Below, piece after piece: positions 30,101 to 36,157 of a stretch of DNA of 64,000 nt (position 1 is the stretch's first letter; the number at the start of each line of letters is the position of its first letter). The DNA comes from Anaerorhabdus furcosa. Lineage in GTDB: Bacteria > Bacillota_I > Bacilli_A > Erysipelotrichales > Erysipelotrichaceae. The notes beneath the pieces were generated by a model that saw nothing but the letters and a program-made list of their open reading frames with translations, was not told the origin of the DNA and did not search any database. The position numbers were made by a program, and so were the translations under genes. The stretch covers positions 248,001 through 312,000 of the forward strand of contig NZ_FUWY01000002.1 in assembly GCF_900167375.1 (NCBI RefSeq). The letters are read 5' to 3'.

Positions 30101-31077
30101 AAAAGTTGTGTGCAATTGGAGAAGCATTAATTGATTTTATTCCAAATGAAAAAGGAAAACGGTTAAAGAATGTTGGAAGTTTTCGACAAGTAGTTGGAGG
30201 TGCTCCTACCAATGTAGCTGCAAGTGTAGCTCGACTAGGTGGAGAGAGCATTGTCTTAACAAAACTAGGTGAGGATGCCTTTGGCGATAATATTGTAGAT
30301 ACATTGAATGAATGTGGTATTGATACTTGTTATATCAAACGCAGTAAAGATTTAGATACATCACTTGCTTTTGTTTCATTAAGTGATGATGGAAATCGTG
30401 ATTTTAAATTTTATCGTAAAACTGCTGCAGATTTAGATTATTCTAAAGATGATTTACCATTTGAGGCTATCGATGATTGTGGGATTATTCATTTTTGTAG
30501 TGTATCACTTGTAGAATCTAAAATGAAAGATGCTCACATTGCTCTTTTAGAATATGCTTTAAAACATCAACTTGTGATATCTTTTGATCCAAATTTAAGA
30601 TTATCATTATGGGAAGACCATGAAGCATTGAAAAAAACAGTACATGATTTTATACCATATGCAGATATTCTTAAGTTATCAGATGAAGAAGTAGAATTTA
30701 TTACAGGAAATACAGATATTACAAAAGAACTTGGCAAATTGTTTCAACACAGATGCAAGCTTATTATTTATACACAAGGTAAAGAAGGCGCTACACTTTA
30801 TTTTAGAGATGGAAGAAGCGTTTATTGCCCAGGATATTCAGTTGATGTAGTTGATACAACAGGAGCTGGTGATAGTTTTATTGGTGCGTTCTTATATAAG
30901 TTGTTAGAAGATGAAAAAGATTTGGATAAGATTGCTATTGAGGATTATCAGTCCTATCTAGATTTTGCGAATTGTTATGCGGCACATACAACAACTAAAG
31001 AAGGGGCACTGAACGCTCTTGCAAATCAAAAAGAAATGAATTCTTTTATAAATACAATAAAAAAAGGGAGTAGATAA
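30097..31077 (+). CDS. scrK: fructokinase, PfkB/ribokinase family
   Basis: A 326-residue PfkB-family kinase converting fructose released by ScrB into fructose-6-phosphate. N-terminal signature GGAPTNVAASVARLGG and C-terminal catalytic motif DTTGAGDSFIGAFLY (base Asp in GAGD) are canonical. The start overlaps the regulator stop codon (ATGA) after AAAAGGAGAG, so expression is coupled. Last gene of the sucrose operon. A GGGAGTAGA/TCTACTCCC hairpin lies at the stop codon. Confidence 0.95.
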   Translation: MKKLCAIGEALIDFIPNEKGKRLKNVGSFRQVVGGAPTNVAASVARLGGESIVLTKLGEDAFGDNIVDTLNECGIDTCYIKRSKDLDTSLAFVSLSDDGNRDFKFYRKTAADLDYSKDDLPFEAIDDCGIIHFCSVSLVESKMKDAHIALLEYALKHQLVISFDPNLRLSLWEDHEALKKTVHDFIPYADILKLSDEEVEFITGNTDITKELGKLFQHRCKLIIYTQGKEGATLYFRDGRSVYCPGYSVDVVDTTGAGDSFIGAFLYKLLEDEKDLDKIAIEDYQSYLDFANCYAAHTTTKEGALNALANQKEMNSFINTIKKGSR

Positions 31078-31089
31078 TTTTCTACTCCC
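31066..31089. terminator. hairpin at the end of the sucrose operon
   Basis: Nine-base perfect arms GGGAGTAGA (31066-31074) and TCTACTCCC (31081-31089). The plus-strand side lacks a good T-run; an A-run on the left would provide one for minus-strand transcripts. Confidence 0.55.
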
Positions 31090-31162
31090 ACTTCTTCATT
31101 ATACATCAAAAAAAATTATAAAAATAGACCTTACTTTTTCTCCTATTTAGGTATAATGAAGG

Positions 31163-31518
31163 TACAAGAAGATATCTTGTGTGATAGAATCGAATTTGAT
31201 TCTAAGAGGAGACTCTGAGGAGGTTAAAGTAAATGGAACCTGGACAGTATGTGGGTATTTTTCAATAAGTAGAAAAATTAAATAATTAAAGAATGAATTT
31301 ATTGAAAACGATTTACAATTCAAAGTTATTTTGTAGTATGAAGATTAAGAAGTAGAAAAGAACTTTGATTGACCTTACCTAGAATATAGGAAACTAAAAA
31401 GCTATTTTGAAAGTCATCTAGCTTTAGATATAAGAAATTCTAAAATGACGTAAAGAGACAAAGATAAATAGATTAAAATAATTGAAGGAATCTAAGATTT
31501 AGTTGGATTCCTTCTTTT
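31163..31518 (+). ncRNA. candidate structured RNA, about 355 nt, with own promoter and terminator
   Basis: TATAAT at 31152-31157 precedes a chain of hairpins: ACAAGA/TCTTGT (31164-31180), TAGAATC/GATTCTA (31185-31204), AGAG-GAGA-CTCT with a GNRA-like tetraloop (31205-31216) and AGGTT/AACCT (31221-31241). A terminator follows 240 bases later: GAAGGAATC (31484-31492), GATTCCTTC (31506-31514), then TTTT. The hydrogenase gene has a separate promoter beyond this terminator. I find no RNase P, tmRNA, 6S, SRP or T-box signature. An 11-codon ORF with a strong ribosome-binding site lies in the fourth hairpin. It may be a regulatory RNA, a leader or a small-protein mRNA. Confidence 0.5.
31233..31268 (+). 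CDS. 11-codon ORF inside the structured RNA
   Basis: GAGGAGG (31217-31223), nine bases, ATG, then MEPGQYVGIFQ and TAA. The ribosome-binding site is one of the best in the window, but the arm AGGTT/AACCT would partly hide it, so translation could be conditional. No family recognised. Being so short, it could be a leader peptide or a chance ORF. Confidence 0.35.
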   Translation: MEPGQYVGIFQ

Positions 31519-31525
31519 CATTTCG

Positions 31526-31554
31526 TTGTGTTTAGTGTCTATTTATGGTATTTT
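31526..31554 (+). promoter_or_regulatory. promoter of the hydrogenase cluster
   Basis: TTGTGT (31526-31531), 17 bases, TATTTT (31549-31554), located after the terminator of the upstream RNA and 34 bases before the first hydrogenase gene. Confidence 0.5.
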
Positions 31555-31587
31555 ATTATTGTGAAAACATTATCATTGGAGGATAGC

Positions 31588-33048
31588 ATGTCATTATTTA
31601 AACATGAAGCAAGACAGTTCAAGTTTGATATTCTAAGAGAAATTGCTGAAGAAGCATTTCAAGATAACTTAACTGAGGAAAAAATACAAGCATTTACAAG
31701 AAAATTAATACCGACAACAAGAGCGGATTTTCGTTGTTGCGTATATAAGGAAAGAGAAATTTTAAGACAAAGAGCACGTTTGGCAATGGGGAAAATGGCA
31801 AATGATGCTGCAGATTATAATCCAAGACAAATCGTTCAAGTAATCGAAGCAGCTTGTGATGGATGTACGATTAAAAAGATTAATATTACAGATAACTGTC
31901 GCAAATGTATGGCTAAAAGTTGCATGGGTTCATGTAATTTTGGTGCTATCTCAATGGGGCAAGATCGCGCTCAAATTGATTATGATAAATGTAAGGAATG
32001 TGGAGCATGTGCAAGAAACTGTCCTTACAATGCAATTGTTGTAACAGAGAGACCATGTTCACAACATTGTCCTGTTGATGCAATTCGTTGGGATGAAAAT
32101 GGAATCGCATTAATTGATGAAAAGAAATGTATTAACTGTGGAGGATGCCAAGCAGCTTGTCCATTTGGTGCAATTGAAGATATTTCATGGATAGTTCCAG
32201 TTATTCAATTACTTCGTTTAAAAACACCAATGTATGCAATCATAGCACCGGCAATTCAAGGGCAATTTGATAATGCAGCACTTCCACAAATTAAGAAAAG
32301 TATTAAAATGCTTGGTTTTGATGATGTATATGAAGCCGCAATTGGAGCAGATGCAGTTGCATTCTATGAAAATCAAGAACTACAAGAACACATTGAAAAT
32401 AAAATACCATTAACAACATCATGTTGTCCTGCCTTTGTAAATATGGCTAAAATTCATTTCCCAGAACAATATGAGAAAAATGTATCAACAACAATTTCGC
32501 CAATGATGGCAATTGCTAGAAAACTAAAGAAAGAACATCCAAATCATGGAATTGTTTTTATTGGACCATGTTTAGCGAAGAAACAAGAGGCGATGGAAGA
32601 ATTTACAGCAGTTGACTATGTACTAACATTTGAAGAATTAGCAGCAATGCTTGTAGCTGAACATATCTATTGTGAAGAGGTAGAGCCTGATACAAGTGAT
32701 TATCCTACAGTATTTGGAAGAGGATTTGCACAAGGTGGTGGAGTTTCTAAAGCAGTTATTCAAGCGGCAAAAGAGGCAAATCAAGGTGAATTTAAAGCAA
32801 TCTATGCAGATGGATGCTTTGAATGTAAGAAACAATTACTAATGATGAAAGTTGGTAAATTTGATGCAGATATCTTAGAGGGTATGTGTTGTACAGGTGG
32901 TTGTATTGCAGGACCTGGAACGGTTGAGACAGCCATGGTTGCAAAGGGCAGAATGAACAAAGAAAATTTAACTCATGATCGAAAGAATATACAAGAATCA
33001 TTAGCAATATTTGACTTTAACGGTGTTGATATGCACCGTGGTAAATAG
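31588..33048 (+). CDS. monomeric [FeFe] hydrogenase with several [4Fe-4S] clusters
   Basis: A 486-residue protein. Residues about 85-220 hold cysteine-rich ferredoxin-like regions (CDGCTIKK, CRKCMAKSCMGSC, CKECGACARNCP, CSQHCP, CINCGGCQAACP) for electron transfer. The H-cluster domain has TTSCCPAFV (about 275), FIGPCLAKKQE (about 322) and LEGMCCTGGCIAGPG (about 430), the three cysteine motifs that hold the active-site iron centre. The TSCCPAF and GPC variants resemble the less-studied group B enzymes rather than classic HydA1 (inference). ATG 31588 follows GGAGG; an upstream in-frame ATG lacks such a site. It starts a four-gene cluster with a sensory-type homologue. Maturases HydEFG are not in this window. 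Confidence 0.88.
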   Translation: MSLFKHEARQFKFDILREIAEEAFQDNLTEEKIQAFTRKLIPTTRADFRCCVYKEREILRQRARLAMGKMANDAADYNPRQIVQVIEAACDGCTIKKINITDNCRKCMAKSCMGSCNFGAISMGQDRAQIDYDKCKECGACARNCPYNAIVVTERPCSQHCPVDAIRWDENGIALIDEKKCINCGGCQAACPFGAIEDISWIVPVIQLLRLKTPMYAIIAPAIQGQFDNAALPQIKKSIKMLGFDDVYEAAIGADAVAFYENQELQEHIENKIPLTTSCCPAFVNMAKIHFPEQYEKNVSTTISPMMAIARKLKKEHPNHGIVFIGPCLAKKQEAMEEFTAVDYVLTFEELAAMLVAEHIYCEEVEPDTSDYPTVFGRGFAQGGGVSKAVIQAAKEANQGEFKAIYADGCFECKKQLLMMKVGKFDADILEGMCCTGGCIAGPGTVETAMVAKGRMNKENLTHDRKNIQESLAIFDFNGVDMHRGK

Positions 33049-33058
33049 GAGGAAATGT

Positions 33059-33313
33059 ATGATTACGATTGAAATTTGTATAGGTAGTGCTTGCTATGTA
33101 AAAGGTAGCAACCAAGCTGTAACCATCCTTCAAACTCTTTTAAAAGATAAACAATGGGAAGATAAAGTAGAAATTAAAGGATCTTTCTGTATGCAATCTT
33201 GTCAAGGTGGTCATGGTTTAGGTATTAAGATTAATGGACGTCAAATGTTAGGTGTTGGATTACACAATATCCAAGAAGTTGTTGAAGAAGAAGTTTTAGC
33301 GTTATTATCATGA
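33059..33313 (+). CDS. thioredoxin-like [2Fe-2S] ferredoxin
   Basis: An 84-residue protein matching the NuoE/HndA-type [2Fe-2S] thioredoxin-like domain: CIGSAC (C-x4-C, Cys7 and Cys12) and CMQSC (C-x3-C) spaced by about 35 residues, the usual four ligands. It probably transfers electrons between a hydrogenase and a partner. ATG 33059 follows AGGAGG at 33047-33052. The next gene overlaps its stop codon. A stand-alone domain of this kind between two hydrogenase genes fits an electron-relay role (inference). Confidence 0.9.
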   Translation: MITIEICIGSACYVKGSNQAVTILQTLLKDKQWEDKVEIKGSFCMQSCQGGHGLGIKINGRQMLGVGLHNIQEVVEEEVLALLS

Positions 33314-34980
33314 CACAATACATCCGATTACAAGAAGGTAATTGTCGTAACTGTTTGCGTTGTGTAAGGATATGTCCAACTAAAGCGATGACGTATATTG
33401 ATCATCAACCTAAAATAATTGAAGATGAGTGTATTTTATGTGGAAAATGTTACTCAGTATGTCCACATAGTGCAAAGAAAGTAAATAGTGATTTTCAATC
33501 GGTAAAAAAATGGTTAGAACAAAAGGAGAAGGTAGTATTAAGTGTTGCTCCTTCTTTTGTTGCGATTTGGCCAAAATTCAAACAGTTAGAAAAAGTTCTA
33601 TTAGAAAAAGGATTTTATCTAGTAGAAGAAACAGCTATTGGTGCAAAAATCGTATCTGAATCTTATAGTCAACTTTTAGTAGAAGGAAAAATGAAGAATA
33701 TTATTTCTACTTGCTGCCCTGCGGTTGTTTCACTAGTAGAAAAAGAGTATGGTGATTTGGTAGATCAACTAGCTCCAATTGTATCACCAATGATTGCTCA
33801 TGGTATTCATATCAAAGAACGATATCCTGATGCGAAAGTTGTTTTTCTATCTCCATGTATTGCAAAACAAAAAGAGAAGAATGATGAACGTTTCAATCAA
33901 GCAATTGATGCAACCATAAGTATGGCTGATTGTTTAGAATTCATTGGTAACATTGAACAAGATGATACAGAATGGGAAGACTTTGAAGGCAGTATTGCAC
34001 GATTATATCCAACACCAGGAGGTATTTTAAAAACCTTACCTCGCGAAATAAATTATAAAAAGGTAAATGTTGAGGGAGTAGAAAGAATTAAACAAGTACT
34101 TAACTCAATCCGCAATGATATGTTAGAAGGTTATTTCTTTGAGATGAGTGCTTGTCATGAGTCTTGTATGGGTGGACCTTTATTAACACATTGTGAACAT
34201 AATGAATGGTTAGGACAAAGTGTTATTCGAAATAGTGTAGACGAGAATAAAAAAATTAATGCAAAAGACCATATGAATACTTATCGAGTTCAATGGGAAA
34301 ATGAAAATATCCAAAGAAACCATCATACTGACGAAGAAATTCAAGATATGTTATACATGATGGGAAAAACAAATATTGATAAAGAACTTAATTGTGGTGC
34401 ATGTGGTTATGAAACATGTCGTGATAAAGCGATAGCAGTTTTGGATGGTAAAGCAGATCCGAAGATTTGTTTGCCGAATGCACTAGAACATGCAGAATCA
34501 ATCTCAAGTCTTATCATTGAAAATACACCCAATGGTATTATTGTTTTAGATGAAAATAGAAACATATTAGAAATAAATCCTTCAGCAAAGTTAATGTTGG
34601 ATTTAGAAAATGTCAATGTTGTAGGATTACCATTATATAGTGTCTTACCAGATAACGAGTTAATTGAATTGGTTAATACAGTTCGACGCGTTCAATATCA
34701 TCGTGCAGCATATCCTCAATATCATAGAACATTTGATCATGCCATAATGAAACTTGAAGAAGGAGATTATGTGGTCTTGATTTTAATGGACTTAACAGTT
34801 GAAGAGACAAAAGAAAAAGTAATGAAACAAATTCGACAACAAACAGTTGAAATTACACAACAAGTCATTGATGATCAAATGCGTACAGTACAAGAAATTG
34901 CGAGTTTGTTAGGTGAAACAACTGCAAAATCAAAAGTAGCTTTAACACGTTTAAAAAAGGCGATGGATGAAGATGAGTAA
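33310..34980 (+). CDS. sensory-type [FeFe] hydrogenase with PAS domain (HydS-like)
   Basis: A 556-residue protein. Residues 1-60 have two [4Fe-4S] motifs (CRNCLRCVRICP, CILCGKCYSVCP). The H-cluster domain shows STCCPAVV (about 133), SPCIAKQKEK (about 181) and ACHESCMGGP (about 280), a shortened third motif. An additional four-cysteine FeS domain (CGACGYETC, about 361-369, and a later CLP) leads to a PAS domain (about 395-505: ENTPNGIIVLDENRNILEIN) and a C-terminal helix. This matches group C hydrogenases proposed to sense H2 rather than turn it over quickly. The next gene, a PP2C-type phosphatase, overlaps it by 14 bases and is the likely output. Confidence 0.88.
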   Translation: MTQYIRLQEGNCRNCLRCVRICPTKAMTYIDHQPKIIEDECILCGKCYSVCPHSAKKVNSDFQSVKKWLEQKEKVVLSVAPSFVAIWPKFKQLEKVLLEKGFYLVEETAIGAKIVSESYSQLLVEGKMKNIISTCCPAVVSLVEKEYGDLVDQLAPIVSPMIAHGIHIKERYPDAKVVFLSPCIAKQKEKNDERFNQAIDATISMADCLEFIGNIEQDDTEWEDFEGSIARLYPTPGGILKTLPREINYKKVNVEGVERIKQVLNSIRNDMLEGYFFEMSACHESCMGGPLLTHCEHNEWLGQSVIRNSVDENKKINAKDHMNTYRVQWENENIQRNHHTDEEIQDMLYMMGKTNIDKELNCGACGYETCRDKAIAVLDGKADPKICLPNALEHAESISSLIIENTPNGIIVLDENRNILEINPSAKLMLDLENVNVVGLPLYSVLPDNELIELVNTVRRVQYHRAAYPQYHRTFDHAIMKLEEGDYVVLILMDLTVEETKEKVMKQIRQQTVEITQQVIDDQMRTVQEIASLLGETTAKSKVALTRLKKAMDEDE

Positions 34981-36157
34981 TAAGGTACATGTCGAAAGTT
35001 TTTTCAAATCATTAAATAAAAAAAATGAAGAACTTTGTGGTGATAAAGTTGAAGTAAGAAGAAATCAAGATTCTTTTATCATGGTTTTAGCGGATGGTTT
35101 GGGAAGTGGTGTAAAGGCGAATATTTTAAGTACACTGACAAGTACAATTATTTCTGAAATGATTGCATCAGGTGCTACGATTCAAGATGCTGTTGAAACC
35201 ATGGCGCAAACCTTACCAGAATGCCAAGAAAGAGGAATTGCATATTCAACCTTCACAATTCTACAAGTCTTTTATGATGGGCAAGCTCATCTTGTAGAGT
35301 TTGATAATCCTGCGACTATTTTTATTCGTAATAATCAATTAGTTGAAATGAATCGTGAAGTAAGAATCATTGGTAAAAGAAAAATTACTGATAGTACCTT
35401 CACTGTTGAAAAAGATGATGTTTTTGTTATGTTCTCAGATGGAATTATTCATGCGGGTATTGGACAAACATTGAACTTTGGTTGGGATTTACCCGAGGTA
35501 CAAGAATTCTTATTAACCTATACAAAAAATGAAGATAGTGCAAAACAAATCGCTCAAATTCTTTTAGCGAATGTAAATAATTTGTATGGTGGTAAGCCAG
35601 GTGATGATTCAACAGTCGCATGTGCAAAAATTCTTGAGGCAAAAGAAGCAAGAGTAATGGTAGGGCCACCTTTGAATGAAGAAGATGATGAAAAAGTAGT
35701 TATGAAATTATTATCTGCGAGTGGGAAAAAAGTATGTTGTGGTGGTACAACAAGCAATATTGTTTCAAGAATAACTGGAAAAGAAATAAAAATGGATGAA
35801 TTAGTTTCTCTAGTATCGGATGTACCTCCAATGGCATATATTGATGGCATTGATTTAGTTACGGAAGGTGTCTTAACACTTCAAAAGGTAAATAAGTATC
35901 TAAGTCGTTGTGTTGAAAGTTCTGAATATTTAGAAGAACTAATTCAATCAAAAGGAAAAGATGGAGCATTGTGTATGGTAAAGTTGTATCTTCAAGAATG
36001 TAGCCAAATTACATTTATGGTAGGGCGTTCTGATAATCCAGCTCATAAAGCAATTGCATATTCTACAATTTCTTTGAATGCAAAGATACAATTAATTAGA
36101 GAAATGGCAGAGAATTTAAAGAAACTTGGGAAAATTGTTTCAATCGAATTATACTAA
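34967..36157 (+). CDS. SpoIIE-family PP2C serine/threonine phosphatase
   Basis: A 396-residue cytoplasmic phosphatase. Residues about 1-225 form the PP2C/SpoIIE domain with VLADGLGSGVKAN, FSDGI and KPGDDSTVAC, including the metal-binding aspartates. Residues about 230-396 form a second alpha/beta domain without a recognised name. It is encoded with a 14-base overlap by the sensory-type hydrogenase, a pairing known for group C hydrogenases, so the H2 or redox signal may be passed on by dephosphorylating an anti-anti-sigma-like or other protein (inference). ATG 34967 follows AAAAAGG; ATG 34973 is another possibility. Confidence 0.88.
   Translation: MKMSNKVHVESFFKSLNKKNEELCGDKVEVRRNQDSFIMVLADGLGSGVKANILSTLTSTIISEMIASGATIQDAVETMAQTLPECQERGIAYSTFTILQVFYDGQAHLVEFDNPATIFIRNNQLVEMNREVRIIGKRKITDSTFTVEKDDVFVMFSDGIIHAGIGQTLNFGWDLPEVQEFLLTYTKNEDSAKQIAQILLANVNNLYGGKPGDDSTVACAKILEAKEARVMVGPPLNEEDDEKVVMKLLSASGKKVCCGGTTSNIVSRITGKEIKMDELVSLVSDVPPMAYIDGIDLVTEGVLTLQKVNKYLSRCVESSEYLEELIQSKGKDGALCMVKLYLQECSQITFMVGRSDNPAHKAIAYSTISLNAKIQLIREMAENLKKLGKIVSIELY

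Follow-up and report, generated by a model that had tools for sequence, protein, structure and literature searches.

An undescribed RNA family with a conserved short open reading frame in gut Erysipelotrichaceae

The stretch of Anaerorhabdus furcosa DNA analysed here (64,000 nucleotides, hereafter the window) contains a predicted structured RNA gene of about 355 nt, apparently a separate unit, lying 5' of a hydrogenase gene (Table 1). A sequence-only reading had proposed an independent transcript at this place, with a TATAAT box, four hairpins chained within 80 bases, then a strong terminator, and a second promoter for the hydrogenase gene. When we read the region 31150-31590 directly, the box and the terminator were found as described, the four small hairpins spanned 78 nt (31164-31241), and a second promoter-like pair was seen by inspection before the hydrogenase ATG at 31588. 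The corresponding site in Holdemania is TTGAAA-17-GATAAT. A scan of 3 kb gave 4 terminator-like sites, where 1.3 are expected. The fold energy of 31163-31518 is -74.6 kcal/mol (z = -3.2, with none of 100 shuffles as good), and the fold without the terminator has a z of -2.6, with one of 100 shuffles as good. In the hydrogenase operon (31588-36157), the group B [FeFe] hydrogenase is encoded together with a small protein similar to a thioredoxin-like ferredoxin, another hydrogenase-like protein that may contain a PAS part, and a phosphatase of the SpoIIE-like type; this content suggests a sensory hydrogenase module.

Table 1. Predicted features of the RNA locus and its surroundings, with positions in the window
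Feature	Position	Strand	Remarks
Terminator of predicted tiny divergent transcript (~30 nt)	31059-31089	-	hairpin 31066-31089 and T run; layout shared by most relatives
Divergent promoter, -10 box TATAAT	31098-31103	-	constant spacing to GAC element in 16 relatives
Central promoter element: A-rich tract, TAGAC, T-rich tract	31108-31139		between the two -10 boxes; from conservation
-10 box TATAAT of RNA gene	31152-31157	+	just 5' of the start in the sequence-only reading
RNA gene, predicted transcript	31161-31518	+	5' end inferred from -10 box, 3' end from terminator
Small hairpin, first of four	31164-31180	+	direct reading
Hairpin TAGAATCGAATTTGATTCTA, second of four	31185-31204	+	read and folded in the window sequence alone
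Hairpin H1, third of four	31205-31216	+	4 bp in the window; immediately 5' of ribosome-binding site
Shine-Dalgarno AGGAGG	31218-31223	+	sequence
Possible core hairpin AGGTT[AAAGTAAATGG]AACCT, start codon in loop	31221-31241	+	invariant, hence without covariation signal
Short ORF MEPGQYVGIFQ*, 11 codons	31233-31268	+	comparison with relatives
Hairpin H2, ORF stop codon in loop	31257-31278	+	covarying in relatives
Intrinsic terminator of RNA	31484-31518	+	hairpin 31484-31514: 12 bp, loop 7, then TTTTC
Separate promoter of hydrogenase operon, TTGTGT-17-TATTTT, TG extension	31526-31554	+	by inspection
Monomeric [FeFe] hydrogenase, group B (TIGR04105)	31588-33048	+	neighbour, outside the RNA; 550 bits against a cut-off of 450

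Relatives of the RNA are found in 18 genomes of five genera, all in the family of Holdemania (Erysipelotrichaceae). A DNA search of 60 relatives returned one Holdemania match (34/36 bases, E 5.9e-9), which sits in the intergenic region 5' of the same hydrogenase gene. Patterns built from this match located the core in 4/4 Holdemania genomes, 9/9 genomes of the genus g65 and two of the genus g18, and two divergent members from the genus g58 were added by covariance model and synteny. The core is kept in 16 genomes from four genera, and codon 2 is altered in the two g58 genomes. When about 85,000 species genomes were scanned, the credible exact core matches were confined to Holdemania's family, and the Holdemania members included the cultured H. 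filiformis and H. massiliensis. No convincing relative was found elsewhere among 395 genomes of the class or the approximately 85,000 species genomes, and viral contigs gave no match to the core. A literature search yielded no account of an RNA like this one in the family. The members define an undescribed RNA family in gut Erysipelotrichaceae, the two cultured Holdemania species included.

Several other candidates were rejected. The remaining plain-DNA matches in the 60 relatives looked like noise in AT-rich DNA, and one match (G030, L004) lies within a coding gene. Matches to the 22-base core with three mismatches were mostly apparently unrelated, and L053, L055, L056 and L038, as read, are without the layout. 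Three exact core matches in other or unnamed groups (L083, L087, L091) also have no flanking layout. Of four class-wide model matches with E of 0.002-0.05 that we inspected, two are the starts of ribosomal-protein genes, another falls within a coding frame and the last is near a gene start. G017, the only g18 genome without the RNA, is also without a close hydrogenase match, which would fit a loss of the whole locus in one piece.

Judged by motif strength, the promoter of the RNA is at chance level (14 sites found against 14.1 expected), and it is absent from the scan list because its -35 is poor. The reason we consider it credible is that the whole unit is conserved across genera. With a GAC/GGC element (31127-31129) as the anchor, 16 sequences give a gap-free alignment from about -45 to +12, with a mean conservation of 1.2 bits per column from -25 to +12 around GAC. 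Two -10 boxes on opposite strands lie at about equal distance from this element, neither with a good -35. The divergent side meets a hairpin and a T run directly in the window's genome and in the majority of the Holdemania and g65 genomes; nine of these terminators were found by script, and the others have an imperfect or longer-looped hairpin. The divergent transcript would then be a hairpin RNA of roughly 20-40 nt, which may have a function of its own or may just shield the upstream gene. In g58 (L156, L161) the divergent promoter faces a small membrane-protein gene. In the two g18 members (L074, L075) no GAC promoter element was seen at its usual place; they have an extra covarying hairpin 5' of the core (TTAAAATTA..TAATTTTAA and TTAAAACC..GGTTTTAA, with a shared loop). 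A regulon search with the g65-type promoter element (at most one mismatch) in 11 genomes led essentially to this locus only, the single exception being a contig-end copy. The proposal that the RNA is its own transcription unit is backed by a promoter and a terminator that are conserved across relatives.

The comparison makes it doubtful that the RNA is noncoding. The best-conserved stretch, the nearly invariant core GGAGGTYAAAGTRAATGRMACCT, combines a perfect Shine-Dalgarno site and a start codon, and opens a reading frame of 10-18 codons among the relatives. A conserved start and an in-frame stop are present in all 18 sequences. None of the 18 has a stop in the first ten codons of frame 0, and the other two frames have 11 and 4 stops. 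Core-model matches outside the family, as read, are partly ordinary gene starts, for example of ribosomal proteins S9 and S18, and for this reason the core resembles a genuine site of initiation. Together these observations strongly suggest that the ORF is translated. The stop codon lies at the top of H2 in seven sequences of g1 (the genus of the window's genome), Holdemania and g18, and shortly after H2 in g65 and g58. Three sister Holdemania sequences have TGA, TAG and TAA at the same codon. Beyond M-(E/T)-P-(G/T) the peptides have little in common, and they differ in length (MEPGQYVGIFQ, MEPGQRGNRR, MEPTSLEEILEGSQK, MTPTIDAETFGLNQKN), so the peptide is probably not the main product.

The sequence-only reading had also proposed covariation analysis of homologous regions as a check, and the pairs of H1 and H2 do covary across genera. 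Both hairpins show both-side changes in six/six pairs each, in alignments hand-made around the best hairpins with N padding, a procedure that favours structure; none of 500 shuffles attains the covariation score, and controls with slid partners collapse. These values were obtained from 18 sequences for H2 and outside g58 for H1. The support comes from the relatives, as the window's own H1 (4 bp) and H2 give p values of 0.63 and 0.16 against shuffled flanks. In most relatives H1 has 5-10 bp; it is absent from g58, where H2 persists. The full-length fold has z values of -3.2, -4.1 and -4.2 in three genera (the window's genome, with Holdemania and g65 at about -4). Behind the ORF follows a structured 3' part of about 200-330 nt, and a terminator lies about 250-450 nt 3' of the core: a script that covered 16 members located it in most of them, and in others it was seen by eye. 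The 3' parts differ so greatly between genera that no common effector structure is established. In Holdemania RNAs (L061-L063) the 3' half carries three AACAGCC copies. In some g65 members a pseudoknot around GAAAGG, close to the 3' end, was noticed by eye, but it does not fit all nine and was discounted.

The explanation that we favour, with a probability of roughly 55%, is a new family of independent, terminator-ended structured RNAs with a translated ORF of 10-18 codons near the 5' end, a switch and an effector acting in trans. The comparison of relatives supports the separate unit, the conserved initiation site, the open frame and the covarying H2 (and H1 outside g58), and we infer the switch step and the trans target. 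Ribosomes would load on the short ORF at its strong ribosome-binding site and would terminate within or just past H2, holding H1, the core and H2 open. The state of the structured 3' part might thereby depend on translation of the leader ORF, and this part would be the likely effector. A more specific and rather speculative form of this reading is a translation-gated RNA switch. Here the back-to-back promoter would give rise to the long RNA and the 20-40 nt hairpin RNA, and ribosomes finishing the tiny ORF inside or beside a hairpin would open or close the 3' effector, so that the RNA might report the translation state in Erysipelotrichaceae.

It is questionable whether the RNA could instead be a plain small mRNA, with the peptide of 10-18 amino acids as its product and the remainder as a long 3' untranslated region. 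The Shine-Dalgarno site, start and stop conserved in 18/18 would fit this, as would g58, where H1 is lost and the ORF remains. However, the peptides share little beyond their first residues and are of unequal length, H2 is preserved by compensatory changes, and 200-330 nt of structured RNA lie behind the ORF. We therefore regard a plain mRNA as unlikely. A true noncoding RNA, in which the loop of the invariant core hairpin binds a protein, an RNA or the 3' end of 16S rRNA and the ORF is incidental, seems less probable again. In its favour, AGGU and ACCU of the core hairpin are kept in 18/18 sequences, even where the bases between them are changed in g58. Against it stand the strict lack of early stops in frame 0, the three different stop codons at one Holdemania site and the resemblance of the core to an efficient translation start.

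The sequence-only reading had suggested a role in energy metabolism, but this was guilt by position. In three genera, g1, Holdemania and g18, the gene for the group B [FeFe] hydrogenase (TIGR04105) lies 3' of the RNA. In g65 an unrelated small membrane-protein gene on the same strand lies 3' of the RNA and the hydrogenase (about 65% identical) is found elsewhere, with no RNA before it in G229, the single g65 example inspected. The RNA of g58 points away from this membrane-protein gene and towards a typA-like gene, so that no same-strand gene lies directly 3' of it. The membrane-protein gene of g58 and g65 encodes about 114 amino acids and has no NCBIfam match. Hydrogenase orthologues in g66, g31, g58, g32, g19 and g65 are without the RNA. 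A uORF attenuator would be expected to have a constant main gene behind it, and the relatives have none. The location of the RNA away from the hydrogenase in g65 and g58 means that control of the hydrogenase in cis is not its general job, and the conserved terminator with varying neighbours again indicates a unit of its own. The hydrogenase link is a shared position in one set of genera and not a general functional partnership.

These arrangements also bear on the possibility that the RNA is a cis leader of the hydrogenase operon, whose short ORF controls read-through of the terminator at 31484 by attenuation. In g1, Holdemania and g18 the hydrogenase does stand behind the RNA, and the order of hairpin, SD/AUG, hairpin with stop and terminator resembles the uORF motif upstream of Streptococcus fthC, as far as the available text on that motif describes it (PMC11109978). 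But the RNA stands apart from the hydrogenase in two genera, one of them without a same-strand gene directly behind, orthologues of the hydrogenase do without it, and the hydrogenase has its own promoter-like pair 3' of the terminator. We consider such a leader improbable.

The sequence-only reading recognised no known RNA class, and the Rfam search it proposed agrees: among the Rfam 15 covariance models no family scored above its gathering score, even in a permissive search, and the best weak match was a truncated plant miRNA model (E 0.21). Genuine 6S RNA (RF00013, C3:137647-137807) and tmRNA (RF00023, C4:24390-24737) copies lie elsewhere in the same genome, which rules out these two identities for the locus; ARAGORN found no tmRNA inside the window, and the searches for SRP and RNase P RNA covered the window only. 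With neither an Rfam match nor a missing 6S RNA or tmRNA to account for, a divergent member of a known housekeeping RNA class (6S, tmRNA, SRP, RNase P) is hardly credible, its size and structure alone being a fit.

Dual-function RNAs such as S. aureus RNAIII/hld, SgrS/SgrT and SR1/SR1P are the first known systems to compare, and RNAIII is transcribed from one of two back-to-back promoters. Like them, the RNA described here is independent, structured and terminator-ended, with a promoter and a terminator that are both conserved in its relatives, and has a short ORF, predicted to be translated. It differs from them in having no Rfam match, a shorter and poorly conserved peptide and an ORF end nested in or next to a hairpin. 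With the trp and ilv leader-peptide attenuators it shares a short ORF overlapping a hairpin, but it has neither a run of codons for a single amino acid nor a fixed controlled gene. In bidirectional bacterial promoters, according to the available text, pseudo-symmetrical DNA drives divergent transcription (PMC12825309). The promoter region here would be similar in both respects, as predicted from its sequence, but differs from that description in that the -10 boxes are about 50 bp apart, a conserved element lies midway and the divergent side is usually terminated within about 40 nt. In the Streptococcus fthC uORF motif, as outlined in the available text (PMC11109978), two hairpins flank a conserved purine-rich SD and AUG, the second hairpin holds the stop, and an intrinsic terminator follows. 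The likeness is one of layout: here too hairpins surround a conserved SD/AUG, the stop falls in the second and a terminator follows. Unlike that motif as described there, the RNA here is long, has its own promoter, is followed by different genes in different genera, and lacks a same-strand gene directly behind it in g58. By analogy, it may work most like uORF motifs of the fthC type (as the available text of PMC11109978 presents them) and dual-function RNAs, the full definition of neither being established. Its layout, in which a short ORF stops within or beside a covarying hairpin and the gene downstream is not a fixed one, blurs the line between a uORF leader and a dual-function small RNA.
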